From Natronolimnobius baerhuensis (lineage in GTDB: Archaea > Halobacteriota > Halobacteria > Halobacteriales > Natrialbaceae), in NCBI RefSeq assembly GCF_002177135.1, contig NZ_MWPH01000001.1:1178001-1242000 (forward strand): a DNA stretch of 64,000 nt. Direction: 5' to 3'. Numbering within the stretch: the stretch's first letter is position 1; each line of letters begins with the position of its first letter. The position numbers and the translations under genes were made by a program. Of the stretch, positions 22,098 to 36,633 are shown one piece after another. A model generated the notes under the pieces. The model did not search any database and had not been told where the DNA came from. It saw only the letters and a list, made by a program, of their open reading frames with translations.

Positions 22098-24326
22098 TTA
22101 GATTCGGTTGAGCATTTCCACGATATCCGCGAATCCGACCTCGCCGTCTCCAGCGAAGTCAAACGCCTCTGGGTTGTTCTGGATGTTTTCGTCCTCGAGA
22201 TTTTCGAAGAAGGCCGTCACGTCGTCGTGGGTGGTCTCGCCATCACCAGTGAAGTCGTTGTGTAGACCGTCGCTCGTGGTGTCTTCGGTGTTGTACTCGC
22301 CGACCTGAATGCTATCACCCGTTTCGACTGGGTCGGGTTCGGGCGTCTCGTCAATGGTGCCGACAACTTCGGCCAGCAGCATGAACAGCGGCGCAGTGTA
22401 GTTGATCGCCCACTCATTCGTGGCATAGGAGTCGTGAATGTCCGCATACGCCAGCAGCGGTCCCTGGTCGAACGCGCCCGGCGAGTCGACACCGAGGTGC
22501 TCGAGCGTCTCGTCGTCTTCGACACCGTCGCCGAGGTGTGGGCCGCCGACGAGCATGCCCGGAATCGGCTCGTCCATCTCTTGGCTCTGGACGATGCGGT
22601 CGTGTGGGTTCTGCGTCGAGCGCTCGCCGTGGCCGGTGACGAACGAGTACCCCGTCGGACTGCGCCCGAGGACGTGATGGAGTGGCTCCGTTATCACGTC
22701 GGCTTCCGGCTGATCTGCGATCCACTCGTTGCCGATTTCCTCGTGCATCTCGACGGCCCAGATACCCTGGAGCGCCCTCGAGAGGCCAGATTTCGTCCAG
22801 CCCCAGTAGAGGCCGTAGACGCCGGTCGTCCACGCGTCGAACTCGTTGGCGGCCGGATCGTCGAGGTATCGTTGTGTCGCCCAGTACGCGCCATTGAGTC
22901 CAGCAGCGGCCGTCTCTGTATCCTCGTGGCTGGTGCCAGCGAGATCGCCGTCGGCCCAGAAGTACGCGTAGTGGCCGAGGCCAACTGGGTTGTTCCAGTC
23001 GATTGGCGCTTCTTCGTCCGAGGGCAGGTCATCGACCTCTCCCTCGAAGCTGTCGAAGCCAAGGTCAGTGTTCTGAATCCACTGATCGTAGCTGTCATCC
23101 CCGGTCGTCCGCAACAACTCGGCGGCCGCCCAGAATCGATCCGGTTCATCGAACCCATCGCGGCCGTAGGCACCCGACCCTTCGTCCTGATTTGCCGATT
23201 CCTCCCAGACAAGGTCCGGGTTGGCCTCGAGCCAGGCCCAGGCGTCCTCGGCATGCTCGAGCATCGATTGGGCGAAATCGGGGTCGTGGTCCTCGTAGAC
23301 GCGGGCGGCCATCGCAAAGGCCGCACAGGCGTGGGCCGTGCCGGCCGAGGAGGTGCCGAAAACGTACCGATCCATATCGTCGTCTTCGGGTGCGACGTCC
23401 ATGCCCGGGAAGCTCTCGTTGCCCGCGAGTTTGTAGAACAGCGACCCGTTTGGCCGCTGCATCTGCGTCAAAAAGCGCAGGCCCTCCTTGCACTCGACGA
23501 GTACGTCCGGCATGTCGCCGAGTTCCGGATCATCAACGAGATGGTCGATGTGGAACTGGCCGGCGTGGAACGACTCGGGGTTGCGCTCGTAGGCAAGCAT
23601 GAGTTGCGCAACGGTAACCCCCGTCGGGTTGACGTACTTGCCGTAGTCGCCCGCATCGTACCAGCCGTTGGTAATGCTGATCGTGTCGCCGGCCTCGTAG
23701 TCCTCGAGCCAGTCGCCGAGTGGTTCGGCAATGATGGCTTCCTCGTCCTGTTCGTGGCCGGGTCCCATCTCGAGGCCGGTGTAGGGGTCCTCGATACGGG
23801 TGCTCGAGCGCTTGAGCGTATAGAGGCGACCGACGTCCCGAAGCACTGGTGCGTACAGTTCGCTCGCGTCATCGATTTCGAACGAATAGGACTCCTCGTC
23901 CCCGACGACGACCCGATACTCGCCCGGCTCGTCGAACTCGGTGAAATTGGCGTACTTGAGGTCGTGGTCCGTGCCGAACTCGTCAGTCACTGCGTCGTCG
24001 CCATCCCAGGGAGAGGCTGCATCTGGCCCCTCACCGAGGGTTTCGTCCATGAGGTCGCCCTCATAGACCGCCTCGCCGCTGTCGGCATCGACGAGCGAAA
24101 ACGTCGAGACGCCGTCGACATCCATCGCCTGGGACGTGATAATCGCTCGTTTGAGTCCCTCGAGTGGATACCCAACTTGATTGACGCGCACGCCACGGTA
24201 CTCGTCGTCGTGGGCCGCCATCCCCGTTCCGGTCATTGCCCCACCAAGAAGCGAAGCGGTTGCGAGTCCGCCCATTGCTTGCAAGACGCGTCGACGCTCC
24301 ATCGCCGTATGTTGCTGTTGGCTCAT
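22098..24326 (-). CDS. Secreted GH9 cellulase with C-terminal dockerin-like module
   Basis: A 742-aa enzyme. Residues 1-37 are a Tat signal (MERRRVLQAMGG). An Ig-like domain (about 43-150, GVRVNQVGYPLEG) precedes the GH9 (alpha/alpha)6 barrel. The catalytic base is in NGWYDAGDYGKY (D224/D227), the substrate loop is RSPTGYSFVTGHG...NPHDR with GMLVGGPH, and the general acid is E638 in YATNEWAINYTAPL. It should hydrolyse internal beta-1,4-glucan bonds outside the cell. Residues 678-742 form a duplicated EF-hand module (DTTSDGLHNDFTGDGETTHD; DFAGDGEVGFAD) related to type I dockerins and homologous to the GH10 neighbour's end. I start at MSQQQHTAM. Confidence 0.93.
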   Translation of the reverse strand: MSQQQHTAMERRRVLQAMGGLATASLLGGAMTGTGMAAHDDEYRGVRVNQVGYPLEGLKRAIITSQAMDVDGVSTFSLVDADSGEAVYEGDLMDETLGEGPDAASPWDGDDAVTDEFGTDHDLKYANFTEFDEPGEYRVVVGDEESYSFEIDDASELYAPVLRDVGRLYTLKRSSTRIEDPYTGLEMGPGHEQDEEAIIAEPLGDWLEDYEAGDTISITNGWYDAGDYGKYVNPTGVTVAQLMLAYERNPESFHAGQFHIDHLVDDPELGDMPDVLVECKEGLRFLTQMQRPNGSLFYKLAGNESFPGMDVAPEDDDMDRYVFGTSSAGTAHACAAFAMAARVYEDHDPDFAQSMLEHAEDAWAWLEANPDLVWEESANQDEGSGAYGRDGFDEPDRFWAAAELLRTTGDDSYDQWIQNTDLGFDSFEGEVDDLPSDEEAPIDWNNPVGLGHYAYFWADGDLAGTSHEDTETAAAGLNGAYWATQRYLDDPAANEFDAWTTGVYGLYWGWTKSGLSRALQGIWAVEMHEEIGNEWIADQPEADVITEPLHHVLGRSPTGYSFVTGHGERSTQNPHDRIVQSQEMDEPIPGMLVGGPHLGDGVEDDETLEHLGVDSPGAFDQGPLLAYADIHDSYATNEWAINYTAPLFMLLAEVVGTIDETPEPDPVETGDSIQVGEYNTEDTTSDGLHNDFTGDGETTHDDVTAFFENLEDENIQNNPEAFDFAGDGEVGFADIVEMLNRI

Positions 24327-24366
24327 ACGTGAAATTATGTCGCGACAGACCATGATAAAAGTTCCC

Positions 24367-24397
24367 TATAGTGTTAGTTAATTTTTATATCACTATA
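24367..24397. promoter_or_regulatory. Dyad between divergent GH9 and flavin-oxidase-like genes
   Basis: TATAGTG (24367-24373) and CACTATA (24391-24397) form a perfect 7-bp inverted repeat with a 17-nt AT-rich spacer, about 40-70 nt upstream of the GH9 ATG and just above its likely TATA (minus-strand CTTTTATC near 24352-24359). Centre-to-centre spacing of about two helical turns suits a dimeric regulator. Unproven. Confidence 0.35.
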
Positions 24398-24567
24398 TCA
24401 GAATGAATAGGATAGTATCCGTGAAAATGGTAACAGTATGTAGGACCGAGTTTATTTGTATGGGCAGGGAGTCAAAATTATTGGGATTTATTCAAGAGTA
24501 TTCACACGAATTTACTACAAAGTGGGAATTCCCCTATACGCTACGTTTGGCTCTCCACAAGAATCAG

Positions 24568-25128
24568 ATGATGACTGTTGAGGAAATGAGCCGGGAGGAA
24601 ATAGAGTCATTTCTCTGTGACGTGAATGCTGGGGTATTATCGCTCACTGACGGAGCAGAAACCTATGCCATACCAGAGTCATTTGGATACGATGGAGACG
24701 CACTCTACTTCCAATTCGTCTATACCGAAGAGAGTCATAAAATGAAAGTAGTAGAAACGACCGATATAGCAACGCTTACTGCATTTACTGAAACACCCAC
24801 GAAGAGCGTCATTGTTCGTGGAGACCTCGAAATGATTCCAGAGGCTGAAAACAGCTGTGCGACAAGTGCACTTACAAGGAACGCGACACCCCCGCTGTTA
24901 AATGTCTATCCCAAAACGCCTTCTGAGAATCTCTCATTCAAGTTCTATCGCTTGAATATAGCTACGATGTCTGGAAGGAAATTTGGGGAGTCAGTAGTTA
25001 GTCCATTAGAAGGACTACCAGACAGAGGTCGGAAGCACCTCGAGAACGCATTAGACGCTAGTGATCCATCCGAAAAAGATAATCATATCCGACAAGTCCT
25101 ACAGGCGTATTCATCATTTCCAGAATAG
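24568..25128 (+). CDS. Pyridoxamine-5'-phosphate-oxidase-like FMN-binding protein
   Basis: A 186-aa protein starting MMTVEEMSREEIESFL. The split-barrel family pattern is clear: GVLSLTDGAETYAIPESFGY, ALYFQFVYTEESHKMKVV and SVIVRGDLEMIPEAE. Relatives bind FMN or F420 or heme; the reaction here is unknown. I favour this start because a TATA-like CTATACGC lies about 30 nt upstream, although the frame is open for another 55 codons. The gene and its flanks are visibly AT-richer than the neighbours and have different codon use, which suggests recent transfer. It lies between two secreted hydrolase genes on the other strand. Confidence 0.75.
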   Translation: MMTVEEMSREEIESFLCDVNAGVLSLTDGAETYAIPESFGYDGDALYFQFVYTEESHKMKVVETTDIATLTAFTETPTKSVIVRGDLEMIPEAENSCATSALTRNATPPLLNVYPKTPSENLSFKFYRLNIATMSGRKFGESVVSPLEGLPDRGRKHLENALDASDPSEKDNHIRQVLQAYSSFPE

Positions 25129-25226
25129 CGCATGCTTGGGAATGGTAAGTAGAGAAGAGAGTATACCGTTAGATTGGAAATTTAAAATTATTCAGCAACA
25201 ACAAGAGAGCATGGCTGAACGCACTA

Positions 25227-26948
25227 TCAGATCGTCCGCAACAGCGCAAGAGCGTCCCTGAACCCAACATCTCCGGTTTCAGCAAAGTCGAACAGTTGCG
25301 GATTCTCCTGAATCGTATCGCCGTCGATATGCTCGAAGAAAACGGCAACGTCGTCGTGGGTGCTCTGCCCATCACCGGTGATATCGTTGGCTAACCCGTC
25401 GCCTGTCGTATCCTGTGGTTCGTAGCCGCCAACCGAGATCTCCTCACTATCATCGGAGACCGTGACAACGACTTCCGTTGTACCGTCTGATTCTGTCACC
25501 GAAACCGTTTCCGTCACGGTCGTCTCGTCCACCGTCACCGTGACCTCGTGTGTCCCCAGAAACGCCTGCGTCTCGTAGCGCCCGCTCGAGTCGGTCGCAC
25601 CCGATTCGTCGGTCCACCACTGCTCGAAGACGAGGTCCGTGTAGGCGTCGTAGCCAGGTTTCGGCTCCCAGTCCTCGTAGAACAAGGGTGCATCGGCCTC
25701 GTGGCCGTCGAAGTTCTCGCCCCAGTGATCGCCGTCCCAGAGCCCCCACAGCACGAACTGCTCGACCGCCGGGTGACTGTAGACCGTTGTGAGAAACTGA
25801 GACAGGAACTCGCCTTTCGCCTCGTCGCTCTCCCACTCGACGCCCTGTAACTCCTGAAACGTGTCGAACTCGGTAATTCGCAGGCCGACATCGTACTCCA
25901 CGAACTCGTCGAGAATCGAATACACTGCCTCCGGCTCGAGCGTCTCCGCCGCGTCGAAGTGACACTGAAAGCCAATGCCGTCGAGGTCGATGCCTTCCTC
26001 GAGCAGGAACTGAATCTGGTCGTGATACGCCGCCTGCGTGTCCGCGTAGTCGCCCTCGAGCGTGTTGTAGTCATTGACGGCGATACCAACACCCTCGCGG
26101 TCGGCGATGGTTTGTGCGTGGTCGTACCACTCGGCGAGAATCGGCGCGGTAGCTGCTGCGGTCGGCTCGAGTTCCTCGTCCGGCCCCTCCTCGACCGCTG
26201 CGATCAGCGCCGTCTCGTGGAGCACCTCGTTGACGATTTCCCACTCCATGATATCGTCGCCGTAGTGCTCGATGAGATCCTCGATGTGATCGAGTGTGCG
26301 CTCGCGGACGTACTCGGGGTCGTAGTCAGGATCGTCCGCGCCGCCCTCGGGCCAGTCAACCCCCATGGCCTCGACAACGTCCGGCGGGATCGACCACGCG
26401 TTGACGTTACCCCAGAGGCAGGTATGGCCTCGGACGTCAAGGTCGTGCTCGAGCGCCCATGCCGTCGCGTCATTGGCTGGTTGGGGATTGTCATCGAAAA
26501 ACCGCCACTTGTGATGGTCGCCGAGCACGACGGTATTGAATAGTTCTCGCGTGTGCTCGCGATAGGGATCGGTCTCGTCCGCCTCGAGCAACGTCGGCGC
26601 GTCGATTGCGACGCCGAATCCGAACGCGTGCTCGTCCATCTCGACGGCGACGTCGGCGTCAGCGACCCGCTCACCGGAGTCGTCTTCGACGACGACCTCG
26701 AGGTCGCCCGTTCGGTGTGTCTCGATCCGTTCGTCGGCTGCCGATTCCCAGTCATCGCTTGCCGCTTGCGCAGTCGCCGTCTCGCTCGCAGCGCCAAGCA
26801 GCGGGGTTGCCACGCCGAGTGTGGCGAGTAGCTGCATGTACGACCGTCGCTCGAGGGCCGTCTCAGTTTGATCGCGATTCGACGTGATGTCCGAACGCCG
26901 GTCCTCCGCGGCGGCGTCGGTCGTCGGCAAGTGGGTCCGATCAGTCAT
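25227..26948 (-). CDS. Secreted GH10 xylanase with C-terminal dockerin-like module
   Basis: A 573-aa enzyme. Residues 33-62 look like a long Tat signal (LERRSYMQLLATLGVATPLL) after a hydrophilic leader. The GH10 TIM barrel follows: GHTCLWGNVNAW, acid/base E241 in WEIVNEVLHE, GIAVNDYNTLEG, GIGFQCHF, nucleophile E360 in LRITEFDTF, and VLWGLWDGDHW. It should cleave beta-1,4-xylan internally. Some extra beta structure (residues about 455-505) leads to a dockerin-like end (DTTGDGLANDITGDGQSTHD; FDFAETGDVGFRD), about 60% alike to that of the GH9 enzyme. The second calcium loop lacks two usual ligands. TATA-like TTTTAATA lies about 30 nt before the ATG. Confidence 0.93.
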   Translation of the reverse strand: MTDRTHLPTTDAAAEDRRSDITSNRDQTETALERRSYMQLLATLGVATPLLGAASETATAQAASDDWESAADERIETHRTGDLEVVVEDDSGERVADADVAVEMDEHAFGFGVAIDAPTLLEADETDPYREHTRELFNTVVLGDHHKWRFFDDNPQPANDATAWALEHDLDVRGHTCLWGNVNAWSIPPDVVEAMGVDWPEGGADDPDYDPEYVRERTLDHIEDLIEHYGDDIMEWEIVNEVLHETALIAAVEEGPDEELEPTAAATAPILAEWYDHAQTIADREGVGIAVNDYNTLEGDYADTQAAYHDQIQFLLEEGIDLDGIGFQCHFDAAETLEPEAVYSILDEFVEYDVGLRITEFDTFQELQGVEWESDEAKGEFLSQFLTTVYSHPAVEQFVLWGLWDGDHWGENFDGHEADAPLFYEDWEPKPGYDAYTDLVFEQWWTDESGATDSSGRYETQAFLGTHEVTVTVDETTVTETVSVTESDGTTEVVVTVSDDSEEISVGGYEPQDTTGDGLANDITGDGQSTHDDVAVFFEHIDGDTIQENPQLFDFAETGDVGFRDALALLRTI

Positions 26949-27199
26949 CAGTTCTCGTCACTGGTATCAACCCCTGTGTATTAAAATCACTAGTATGTAC
27001 CTTGCAATTTACTTTACGAGGGGTCGCCGTGGCGTCGGTCAGGGTGGCCTTGCAGAGACGAGTTTCAATACACGACCCTCGAGAACGGTCATTCACTGTG
27101 AACCGACGTTTCAGCGGTGCGAGCGACATATCTGAACCGTATTACAGCACACACCGCCGGTGACTGGAACGCCTGAGTTCGGATAGCGTCGAGACGGAT

Positions 27200-28477
27200 T
27201 TAGGAAACGGTGATTTCGACCTCGTGAGTGGTCGTCGTTCCCTCGTTGTCAGTCGCAGCTAGCGCGACCGTGTACGTCCCTGCGGAATCGTACGTGTGCT
27301 CGTTCCACCAGCCACTGGCGGTCGTCCCGTCGCCGAAGTCCCACTCGAGAGAGTCGATCCAGGTCCCAGCGCCCGTGGTATCCTCGACGGCGAACGTGAT
27401 GCGGTCGCCAGCCGACGCCGACGTCGTGCTCTCGTTCATCACGGCGTTCAGGTTGTCATCATCGTCACCTGGGCTGTCGTCGTCACCGGTATCGCCGTCG
27501 TCATCATCGCCATTATCGCCGTTATCACCGTTCTCGCCATCTCCAGGCGGTGTGCCAGATCCGTCGCTCCCGCTGGTGTAGGTCGTTCCGTTGACTGTTA
27601 CGTCGAGGGTATTGTAGGTGACGTCGCCCTGCGTGCCCTGCCAGTACTCGCTGCCGACTTCGATGCCGCTGACCCACAGGTCCTCACTGATACCAACGTT
27701 TTGCGTGAGATAGTCCATGATCTCTGTTAGATCGATCTGTCCCGTGGTCAGGCCGCCGCTAACGCGGAAAATATGGAAGGCTGCGTCCGTGCCGCCGCCC
27801 TCGTTGTAGACCGTCCAGTAGTCGATGGTATTGCCGAACTGGTCGGTCCAGGCGTTGTCTTCGATTGCCCCGCCGTGGCCGTGGTCGTCGCTCCAGTCGA
27901 GCACCAGCATGATCTCGTGGGTGTGGGTTTCGGTCTCCTGAGAGGGCGGTTGCTCCATCAGCCACCACTCCTCGGCGAGGTTCCACTCGCCGCCCGACAC
28001 ATCGAGGTCGACGTCGATGTCGAGAATCAGTTCGTCGACGTTGCCGCGCTGAATCGGGAACGAGTCGGCGCCGCTGTCGTCGCCCCACGGTTTGGTGCCG
28101 AGCAGCACCTGCGGATAGTTCGGCTCACCGCCTGCCGTCGTCCGCGTCTCCCAGTGGTAGCCGTAGCTGCCGTCCTCCGCGAGCCAGCTACACATCTCGA
28201 AGTCGTCGGCGGTCGCTCCCCAGTCGTTGTTGACCAGCAGGAAGTTGCCGTCGCCGACGGTGATCTCGCCAAACGACTCGCAGGTCTCGTCAGCGAGTTC
28301 CTGTCCCGCGGCGAGCGAACTGCCGGCGAGCAAGAACGCACCCGCGCCAGCGCTCGCCTTCAGAAAGCTGCGTCGCGATCCGGCTCCAAGACGGCCGCTC
28401 GAGGACCGTTTCTTCTGACTCTCCAGACTGTTGTTCTCCGCCGGTTCGCCGTCGGAATCAGTGGGTTTGCGTGTCAT
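27200..28477 (-). CDS. Secreted GH12-like endoglucanase with PKD domain
   Basis: A 425-aa protein. The Tat signal is at residues 34-58 (SRRSFLKASAGAGAFLLAG). Residues 64-302 show GH12 features: LVNNDWGA, SYGYHWETRTTAGG, YPQVLLGTKPWG, candidate nucleophile E188 in HEIMLVLDW and candidate acid/base E277 in GIEVGSEYWQG, in a jelly-roll pattern. A Gly/Asp linker (about 303-345) connects to a PKD domain (SLEWDFGDGTTASGWWNEHT, ending YTVALAATDNEG). GH12 enzymes cut beta-1,4-glucans or xyloglucan. The GH12 call is by motif reading only. There is no dockerin-like end. It is in line with the GH10 and GH9 genes, but 250-nt gaps suggest separate promoters. Confidence 0.75.
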   Translation of the reverse strand: MTRKPTDSDGEPAENNSLESQKKRSSSGRLGAGSRRSFLKASAGAGAFLLAGSSLAAGQELADETCESFGEITVGDGNFLLVNNDWGATADDFEMCSWLAEDGSYGYHWETRTTAGGEPNYPQVLLGTKPWGDDSGADSFPIQRGNVDELILDIDVDLDVSGGEWNLAEEWWLMEQPPSQETETHTHEIMLVLDWSDDHGHGGAIEDNAWTDQFGNTIDYWTVYNEGGGTDAAFHIFRVSGGLTTGQIDLTEIMDYLTQNVGISEDLWVSGIEVGSEYWQGTQGDVTYNTLDVTVNGTTYTSGSDGSGTPPGDGENGDNGDNGDDDDGDTGDDDSPGDDDDNLNAVMNESTTSASAGDRITFAVEDTTGAGTWIDSLEWDFGDGTTASGWWNEHTYDSAGTYTVALAATDNEGTTTTHEVEITVS

Positions 28478-35787: not shown

Positions 35788-36633
35788 TCAGTGCCGGCGT
35801 TGGAGCCCCACCCAGAGCGCAATCGCCACGATTGCGCCCGGAATCGCGACACCGGGGACCGCGTCGTCACCCTCGTCGTCGGCCGCCGCAGCGTCGTCAG
35901 CCGCGTCGTCCGAGGGGGTACTCGAGTCGGTCGTGTCGTTCTCGTCCGCGGTGTCGTTTTGCGTGTCTTGCTCGGCGTCATCGGCGAGCGTGATGCCATC
36001 GGGGTCGTCCGTTCCCGTCTCGTCGCCGGACTCATCGGCCGGTTCCGAGTCGTCTGCACCGCCCTCGATGTGGACCTGGGCGTTTCGGTCGACGATACTC
36101 TGTGGATAGCCGGTGATCACTATCGCCTCCGACTCCACGATCTCGAGCGTCTCCGTCGCTGGCTCGGCGTCGTCGTCGACGGCGAGCGTCAGCGTCGCCG
36201 CCGTGTCCGTCGCGGTTGCGCCGTCACCCGAGGGCGTTCGTTCCTGCTCGATGATGACTGTCCCGTTCTCGTCGTCGATATCGGCTGTTCCATCAACTGT
36301 AGCGTCGGAATTGCCATCCGCGAGCATCGGCCCGTGTTCGACATCGGTCACCGAGAGGACGTCACTCTCGTGGGCAATCGTCAGCGAGAGGTTGTCGATC
36401 CCGTTCCCGTTGTAATCGCCGTGATCGCTGACGATCACCTCGAGTTCGACCGTCTCGCCTGCGTCAGCGTCGAGTGCAATCCCGTTTGCCGTGCTCTCGG
36501 CATCCTCGGCGTCGAACGAGATGATTGTCACCCCATCGCCCGCACTGGCCGGTCCAGTGCCAGCGAGGAGTCCAACGCCGAGACAACAGACGAGTACGAG
36601 CGCGAGCAGCGTCTTGCGTGATTGCTGGGTCAC
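35788..36633 (-). CDS. Surface-anchored protein with cohesin-like domain
   Basis: A 281-aa exported protein. Residues 1-31 are a Sec signal ending in ASA. Residues 33-190 are a beta-rich domain with the layout of cohesins: a DADAGETVELEVIVSDHGDY strand region, then IDNLSLTIAHESDVLSVTDV (the 'y.ds.l.v..v..g' pattern), a mid segment NGTVIIEQERT and AATLTLAVDDDAEPATETLE. An Asp/Thr-rich linker (195-255) leads to a membrane helix (VPGVAIPGAIVAIALWVG) and QRRH, like a PGF-CTERM-type or simple C-terminal anchor. The cohesin reading is by pattern only. Its start overlaps the P19-like gene by 4 nt, tying it to that module. Confidence 0.6.
   Translation of the reverse strand: MTQQSRKTLLALVLVCCLGVGLLAGTGPASAGDGVTIISFDAEDAESTANGIALDADAGETVELEVIVSDHGDYNGNGIDNLSLTIAHESDVLSVTDVEHGPMLADGNSDATVDGTADIDDENGTVIIEQERTPSGDGATATDTAATLTLAVDDDAEPATETLEIVESEAIVITGYPQSIVDRNAQVHIEGGADDSEPADESGDETGTDDPDGITLADDAEQDTQNDTADENDTTDSSTPSDDAADDAAAADDEGDDAVPGVAIPGAIVAIALWVGLQRRH

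Follow-up and report, generated by a model that had tools for sequence, protein, structure and literature searches.

Three secreted glycosidases of Natronolimnobius baerhuensis and a predicted cellulosome-like docking system in haloarchaea

The glycosidase locus

The window analysed here is a stretch of 64,000 nucleotides from the haloarchaeon Natronolimnobius baerhuensis (contig NZ_MWPH01000001.1, positions 1,178,001 to 1,242,000). Positions 22098-28477 encode, on the reverse strand, three acidic glycosidases with Tat-type signals, which belong to families GH9, GH10 and GH12 and had been placed at exactly these coordinates in a preliminary description of the DNA. The locus comprises the following features:

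22098..24353, (-): GH9 endoglucanase/cellulase, 751 aa, with a Tat-type signal, a CelD_N Ig-like domain, a GH9 domain (167-660) and a C-terminal dockerin-like module
22101..22316, (-): dockerin-like module of GH9, with two Ca-binding-loop motifs; Dockerin_1 match of 5e-4 in isolation, below cut-off
24403..25128, (+): Nim/pyridoxamine-oxidase-like gene (Pyridox_ox_2; PF12900, 4e-16), inserted between GH9 and GH10
25227..26948, (-): GH10 beta-1,4-xylanase-family enzyme, 573 aa, with a Tat-type signal, a GH10 domain (107-437) and a C-terminal dockerin-like module
25230..25445, (-): dockerin-like module of GH10, recognized by the family profile in a search of its own genome (E=6e-38) and in family alignments
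27200..28477, (-): GH12 endoglucanase-family enzyme, 425 aa, with a Tat signal, a GH12 domain, an acidic linker and a C-terminal PKD domain; without a dockerin

The family assignments proposed in the preliminary description were borne out by profile searches. The GH9 protein matches PF00759 (E=8e-69) and, through its Ig-like domain, PF02927 (E=1.6e-11) in Pfam, as well as GH9 structures in the PDB (E as low as 8e-81), and its catalytic domain contains the DAGD base motif (233-236), PHDR (583-586) and the C-terminal acid E647. The GH10 protein matches PF00331 (Pfam, E=6e-36) and GH10 structures in the PDB, and two catalytic glutamates, E241 (WEIVNE) and E360 (ITEFD), are present in its TIM-barrel domain. 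For the GH12 protein, a search of Pfam with the full-length sequence gave no GH12 match, and the domain in isolation matched PF01670 with 24.3 bits (E=4e-5), below the curated cut-off of 27; PF01670 is matched by 22 of 23 relatives (best 1.1e-11), and the family profile retrieves the GH12 structures 3wx5 (E=9e-17), 2bw8 and 1h0b from the PDB. The nucleophile and acid/base pair of this enzyme, E188 (HEIM) and E277 (GSEYW), is invariant across the 23 relatives, and catalytic residues can, as had been claimed, be located in all three enzymes.

Twin-arginine (RR) motifs of the Tat type occur in all three glycosidases, in agreement with the earlier reading. The accessory domains described there (Ig-like, dockerin-like and PKD) are also all present, but not on each enzyme: the dockerin-like module is confined to GH9 and GH10, the PKD domain to GH12 and the Ig-like domain to GH9. 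The PKD domain of the GH12 protein (PKD_4, E=1e-14) is 67% identical to that of a scaffold protein encoded elsewhere in the genome. The three genes share one strand and one region but do not form the uninterrupted row that had been envisaged, since the Nim-like gene lies between GH9 and GH10. The GC content of this gene is 43.7%, compared with 62% in its neighbours, and it is absent from the syntenic locus of a genome of the same genus (G104), where GH9 and GH10 are 107 bp apart. It is not a component of the polysaccharide or docking system.

Polysaccharide-degrading capacity of the genome

The search for further hydrolases that had been recommended revealed a second cluster, which encodes GH5, GH10 and GH12 enzymes and a pectate-lyase-like protein; in total, the genome contains eight GH10 genes, three GH3 genes and one GH43 gene with a dockerin. 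GH9 is rare in Halobacteria (22 of 391 genomes). The gene content of the whole genome thus supports a predicted use of plant polysaccharides, although the lignocellulose-degrading lifestyle suggested earlier goes further than this, as nothing found bears on lignin. The GH5/9/10/12 pattern and a plant-polysaccharide lifestyle have already been published for haloarchaea (PMC10267330, PMC4569967), and the enzyme families are identical to those of published cellulotrophic haloarchaea (PMC10267330; Natronoglomus mannanivorans, PMC10963439). Sets of GH9, GH10 and GH12 in cellulose-growing haloarchaea are therefore prior knowledge, and the new part is the accessory docking module.

A shared dockerin and a multi-cohesin scaffold

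A clade-specific profile identifies a C-terminal dockerin of approximately 70 aa on GH9, GH10 and 11 other secreted proteins. The 13 carriers comprise 10 recognized glycosidases (GH9, two GH10, GH12, five GH5 and GH43), one alpha/beta-hydrolase, one weakly pectate-lyase-like protein and one protein of unknown type. No dockerin was found in a search of this genome with PF00404 (Pfam), the GH9 module scoring 15.5 bits in the whole protein and 20.7 bits in isolation (cut-off 22.9); dockerins of relatives, in G344 and G208, pass this threshold. Two conserved loop motifs in the alignment correspond to the duplicated Ca-binding loop-helix of dockerins. In a structural comparison of the AlphaFold2 (AF2) model of the GH9 module (pLDDT 95.5) with the PDB, a TM-score of at least 0.47 was reached by dockerins only (best 2vn5/2vn6/2ccl), the Foldseek E-values for these 72 residues not being significant. 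The preliminary description had recorded the modules as dockerin-like but had overlooked what follows from this, a docking module in common and, at another site of the genome, a scaffold with several cohesins:

C3:374818-377265: multi-cohesin scaffold, 815 aa, Tat-type, non-catalytic, with three cohesin modules, two FN3 domains, CBM5/12 and PKD

The scaffold gene lies among six dockerin enzymes within the main cellulase cluster (C3:365-379 kb), and the genome thus combines one three-cohesin scaffold with 10 dockerin-bearing glycosidases. The AF2 model of a cohesin module, built on a three-sequence alignment (pLDDT 79), has the nine-stranded beta-sandwich typical of cohesins, and PDB ranks 1-33 are cohesins without exception (E down to 1e-7, TM 0.66-0.78). 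The cohesin family profile matches Scaffoldin C (1.8e-4). The curated threshold of PF00963 is not reached by the scaffold module (16.9 bits, cut-off 24.1); among related cohesin modules, 12 of 31 match this profile (best 5.6e-6). Modules 2 and 3 of the scaffold are 82% identical. The scaffold carries its carbohydrate-binding module at residues 682-721, with a CBM5/12 score (19.9 bits) below the cut-off of 26.2, and such a module occupies the same position in the scaffolds of G321 and G202.

Proteins with a single cohesin and an anchor lie next to the scaffold in the genomes G344, G321, G142, G103 and G264; no membrane-anchored cohesin of the scaffold type was found in the genome of N. baerhuensis. 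Two candidates were rejected. A protein of the window (35788-36633) gives a chance-level score with the scaffold-type profile, and its neighbours are unrelated to polysaccharide use. The PF00963 cohesin match at C3:698785 is only weakly of the scaffold type. The G104 counterpart of the 35788-36633 protein is 46% identical to it and matches PF00963.

Distribution and evolution in haloarchaea

Of 391 Halobacteria genomes, 18 combine at least three cohesin matches with at least five dockerins (odds ratio 56, p=1e-16). Only the cohesin threshold is reached in 14 genomes and only the dockerin threshold in eight; the other 351 reach neither. With a broader cohesin profile, cohesins were detected in six of the eight dockerin-rich exceptions and in one of 12 dockerin-free controls; dockerin-rich G078 and G088 contain no cohesin of the scaffold type even by this profile. 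The largest cluster (G344) encodes an eight-cohesin protein, an anchored single cohesin and 17 dockerin proteins, and agrees in protein lengths and gene order with most of the published Table 1 for Natronoglomus mannanivorans (PMC10963439). The clusters of G103 and G321 include at least five cohesins with 14 dockerin proteins and three cohesins with 12-13, respectively, and adaptor-like proteins combine a dockerin with five cohesins (G264) or three (G208).

Dockerins are 71% identical within a genome on non-homologous enzymes, compared with 50% between genomes on homologous enzymes. The nearest relative lies in the same genome for 71 of 84 dockerins but for only 12 of 75 catalytic parts, and dockerins group by genome across GH9, GH10, GH5, GH12 and GH43 rather than by substrate or enzyme family. 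Such homogenization within genomes, regardless of the enzyme, is the pattern that a shared partner would impose. Cohesin and dockerin distances show a modest partial correlation after correction for relatedness (r=0.42, p=0.013, 10 genomes).

A predicted cellulosome-like system

The window contains three secreted plant-polysaccharide hydrolases, of which GH9 and GH10 are, with good confidence, predicted docking subunits of a haloarchaeal cellulosome-like system. The computed basis consists of the enzyme families, the shared dockerin, the three-cohesin scaffold with CBM5/12 and PKD, the co-occurrence and the dockerin homogenization. After Tat export, the dockerins would bind the cohesins of the 815-aa scaffold with Ca2+, and the CBM5/12 and PKD of the scaffold would keep the complex on the polymer. 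In other genomes, the single-cohesin proteins beside the scaffold, which bear C-terminal membrane anchors, may tie the enzymes to the cell. GH12 would act as a free enzyme, presumably brought to its substrate by a PKD domain of the scaffold's type. Several points weigh against the proposal: the Pfam scores below cut-off of both module types in this genome, the small alignment behind the cohesin model, the modest distance correlation, the failure to find an anchored cohesin of the scaffold type in this genome, and the two dockerin-rich genomes without such a cohesin. In addition, the Ca2+ needed for dockerin recognition is in short supply in soda brines, and salt at multi-molar concentration may influence cohesin-dockerin binding.

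The published reading of Natronoglomus assigns the dockerin a role in substrate binding (PMC10963439, PMC13260240), in which case the module would itself bind polysaccharide, the enzymes would work independently and the scaffold would be an unrelated adhesin or CBM carrier. The sub-threshold Pfam scores of the dockerins in this genome suit such a role, which is nevertheless unlikely given the two EF-hand-like Ca loops, the dockerins as sole good structural matches, the co-occurrence with multi-cohesin proteins and a homogenization that follows the genome and not the substrate. Still less credible is an ordinary polysaccharide locus of free secreted cellulases and xylanases, in which cohesins and dockerins are vestigial or non-cellulosomal. 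Non-cellulosomal forms of both modules have been described in archaea (Peer 2009, cited by PMC9012536), a cohesin gene paired with a dockerin gene is widespread among haloarchaea without any relation to CAZymes, and six of the eight GH10s of this genome lack a dockerin; on the other hand, the conserved module arrays sit in CAZyme clusters where as many as 17 proteins carry a dockerin, modules 2 and 3 of the scaffold are highly similar, and none of the 13 dockerins shows decay. A reading as one more haloarchaeal CAZyme locus was discarded, since it accounts for neither the dockerin homogenization nor the scaffold.

The predicted cohesin-dockerin system resembles bacterial cellulosomes (Clostridium thermocellum CipA, C. 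cellulolyticum, Ruminococcus flavefaciens ScaC) in its multi-cohesin scaffold with a CBM, its cohesin fold, a single C-terminal dockerin per enzyme, the enzyme families (GH5, GH9, GH10, GH12 and GH43) and, in the genomes of relatives, single-cohesin anchors and cohesin-dockerin adaptors. It differs in being archaeal, very acidic and secreted by a Tat-type route, in its salt-saturated and presumably aerobic habitat, in divergent cohesin and dockerin sequences, in CBM5/12 and PKD instead of CBM3 on the scaffold, and in PGF-CTERM-like or transmembrane anchors instead of SLH or sortase. Archaeal modules are also known from Archaeoglobus fulgidus and ANME, and 2xdh is among the structural matches of the cohesin model; those modules are not tied to cellulases, whereas the haloarchaeal partners are nearly all CAZymes in scaffold-containing clusters. 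Multi-cohesin scaffoldin-like proteins have been reported in ANME (PMC9012536); according to that paper, which cites Peer 2009, archaea otherwise lack multi-cohesin scaffoldins, and the ANME examples lack cellulases.

Conclusions

A 2025 review (PMC12484212) attributes cellulosomes to certain anaerobic bacteria and fungi. Extremely halophilic archaea probably make true cellulosomes in saturated brine, in which multi-cohesin scaffolds and cell-anchored cohesins bring together up to approximately 17 cellulases, mannanases and xylanases that bear dockerins. The cohesin-dockerin pairs would be divergent and specific to each genome, and the surface anchors would be of archaeal type. Published annotation describes the multi-cohesin protein as a GH5/CBM6 endoglucanase and the anchored cohesin as an S-layer glycoprotein, treats the dockerin as binding substrate, and makes no mention of cohesins; if the proposal is true, these annotations would be corrected in several genomes. 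In related strains, insoluble cellulose is attacked only by cell-bound cellulases, with firm cell attachment and little sugar released (PMC4569967). This physiology favours the proposal, and a haloarchaeal cellulosome could explain why the attack is limited to cell-bound cellulases. The cellulosome paradigm would then extend to archaea and saturated brine. Beyond bacteria and fungi, a third group would possess cellulosomes, whose members are generally considered aerobic, and the system would also provide salt-stable cohesin-dockerin pairs for protein engineering.

The GH9, GH10 and GH12 locus

The trio of secreted plant-polysaccharide enzymes was found at the positions given in the preliminary description (22098-28477), with an additional gene between GH9 and GH10:

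22098-24353, reverse strand: GH9, with a Tat-type motif at its N-terminus, an Ig-like domain (CelD_N) and a complete GH9 domain
24403-25128, forward strand: Nim/pyridoxamine-oxidase-like gene, 44 % GC
25227-26948, reverse strand: GH10, an unambiguous family member
27200-28477, reverse strand: GH12, in which Pfam detects PKD and Tat alone when given the whole protein

The family assignments proposed from sequence alone hold for all three. Pfam recovers both GH9 domains, and the closest solved structures are GH9 endoglucanases (5u0h, 3x17); GH10 is clear by Pfam and structure search; and PF01670 is matched by the isolated GH12 domain and 22/23 family members, while the family profile finds GH12 structures (E=9e-17). 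All catalytic residues were located and are in place, and the three proteins are strongly acidic (pI at most 4.05, the floor of the calculator). In G104, a genome of the same genus, the trio is syntenic (86-92 % identity), with GH9 and GH10 spaced by 107 bp and the Nim-like gene absent from the syntenic locus.

Haloarchaea growing on cellulose, with multiplied GH5, GH9, GH10 and GH12 genes, have already been described (PMC10267330, PMC4569967), and the set, taken without its docking module, is an instance of this known pattern; GH9 is rare in Halobacteria (22/391 genomes). A second polysaccharide region of this genome (contig C2, 728-739 kb) holds four GH10 genes, none with a dockerin, forming a free-enzyme xylan cluster; more dockerin-free GH10 occurs at C2:731 kb and C6:12 kb.

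Dockerin modules and the scaffold protein

GH9 and GH10 have similar C-terminal ends of ~70 residues, which form, as alignments with two Ca-loop motifs indicate, a dockerin-like module. Its AF2 model (pLDDT 95.5) has only dockerins among its Foldseek PDB matches with TM of at least 0.47, with E-values that are not significant for so short a chain, and Pfam Dockerin_1 matches 27/33 relatives, the module of the window GH9 scoring under the cut-off. A profile search identified 13 proteins in this genome that end in this module:

window: two (GH9, GH10)
C3:365-379 kb: six (three GH5, GH10, GH12, pectate-lyase-like)
C3:327-333 kb: three (two GH5, one without assigned family)
C2:911-914 kb: two (GH43 with ricin-type lectin; alpha/beta-hydrolase)

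Since 6/8 GH10 genes of this genome lack it, the dockerin is not a general trait of secreted enzymes.

At the centre of the C3 cluster lies an 815-aa scaffold protein (C3:374818-377265) with no catalytic domain, composed of a Tat signal, cohesin-like module 1, FN3, cohesin-like modules 2 and 3 (82 % identical), FN3, CBM5/12 and PKD. The window GH12 has no dockerin, and its PKD is of the scaffold's type (67 % identity). One cohesin module, modelled by AF2 from a three-row alignment, forms a nine-stranded sandwich (pLDDT 78.7) whose PDB matches 1-33 are cohesins without exception, including C. acetobutylicum CohA2, R. flavefaciens ScaC, CipA and an Archaeoglobus fulgidus cohesin. By sequence, a 31-row profile of related modules finds Scaffoldin C (1.8e-4), and Pfam Cohesin matches 12/31 of them (best 5.6e-6). 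Elsewhere in the window, a 281-aa protein with a PGF-CTERM-like end (35788-36633, reverse strand), adjoining menaquinone and DUF7350/iron-transport-like genes, is cohesin-like via its G104 counterpart (PF00963, E=2e-5) and scores at about chance with the scaffold-type cohesin profile.

Clusters in related haloarchaea

Cohesin and dockerin genes are also clustered in other Halobacteria genomes:

G344: a GH5-domain protein of 1768 aa bearing eight cohesins; a single-cohesin protein of 258 aa with a C-terminal PGF-CTERM-like anchor; 17 dockerin proteins (GH5, GH10, PL14, others)
G103: a scaffold with at least five cohesins at a contig edge; an anchored single cohesin; 14 dockerin proteins
G321, G202, G143, G076, G142: scaffolds of two or three cohesins amid 4-13 dockerin enzymes, often with the same MPLRVTFLGTAG gene adjoining
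G264: adaptor-like protein, five cohesins and a dockerin
G208: adaptor-like protein, three cohesins and a dockerin

Direct reading of the sequences identified the anchored single cohesins. The G344 cluster agrees in order and most protein lengths with Natronoglomus mannanivorans MCU4972_2716-2735, in which the eight-cohesin protein was published as a GH5/CBM6 endoglucanase (1,755 aa) and the anchored cohesin (258 aa, 2 TMH) as an S-layer glycoprotein (PMC10963439).

A ~570-aa Tat-type protein starting MVxRRxVLKxG (L131:8178-9917, L121:10387-12093) is conserved within the clusters, without dockerin or Pfam domain; its G344 counterpart is given as CBM3 in the Natronoglomus paper. A further locus, in G043 (C1:468-493 kb; L048:3000-20000 and L049:1-8109), encodes ~15 Pfam cohesins, including a membrane-anchored multi-cohesin protein of >1,100 aa, adjoining repeated ~900-1,100-aa proteins that have terminal canonical dockerins and are peptidase-like by eye. 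This is possibly a haloarchaeal protease form of the same assembly principle.

A probable protein partner of the dockerin

The Natronoglomus mannanivorans dockerin was published as taking part in substrate binding (PMC10963439). A polysaccharide-binding module would be expected to track the enzyme or the substrate; the dockerin instead tracks the genome, which argues for a protein partner. The modules are homogenised, with 71 % identity within a genome, on non-homologous enzymes, versus 50 % between genomes on homologous ones, and the nearest neighbour lies in the same genome for 71/84 dockerins versus 12/75 catalytic parts. Cohesins behave likewise (58 % identity within genomes, 31 % otherwise), and cohesin and dockerin distances correlate, modestly, beyond the housekeeping gene PurL (partial r=0.42, p=0.013, ten genomes).

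When both profiles were applied to 391 Halobacteria genomes and the two result tables cross-tallied, at least three cohesin-module matches were found in 32 genomes, at least five dockerins in 26, and both in 18, from 11 genera and four families. The odds ratio is 56 (Fisher p=1e-16), the p-value being indicative because the genomes share kinship and per-genome counts are lower bounds. A broader cohesin profile detected cohesins in 6/8 dockerin-rich exceptions versus 1/12 dockerin-free controls. A ~890-aa dockerin-bearing protein adjoining a ~260-aa cohesin protein is widespread in haloarchaea, apparently not in CAZyme clusters (for example G113:C1:823265-823943, G083:C3:1351827-1352606; loci L106, L108), and this pair is a possible ancestor of the enzyme-docking system.

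A proposed haloarchaeal cellulosome

The GH9 and GH10 dockerins are predicted to bind the scaffold in a Ca2+-dependent manner, CBM5/12 and PKD would attach the scaffold to the substrate, and anchored cohesins, none of which was found in this genome, may provide cell attachment. Such a cell-attached docking mechanism agrees with reports in which haloarchaeal cellulases attack insoluble cellulose only when bound to the cell and the medium receives little sugar (PMC4569967). According to a 2025 review, cellulosomes belong to anaerobic bacteria and fungi (PMC12484212), and a 2024 genome survey covered bacteria. No paper linking cohesins to haloarchaeal polysaccharide degradation was found in the open-access literature, which was the scope of the search, so that priority is uncertain. 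By its architecture, the haloarchaeal system is a cellulosome, with cohesin-dockerin binding predicted.
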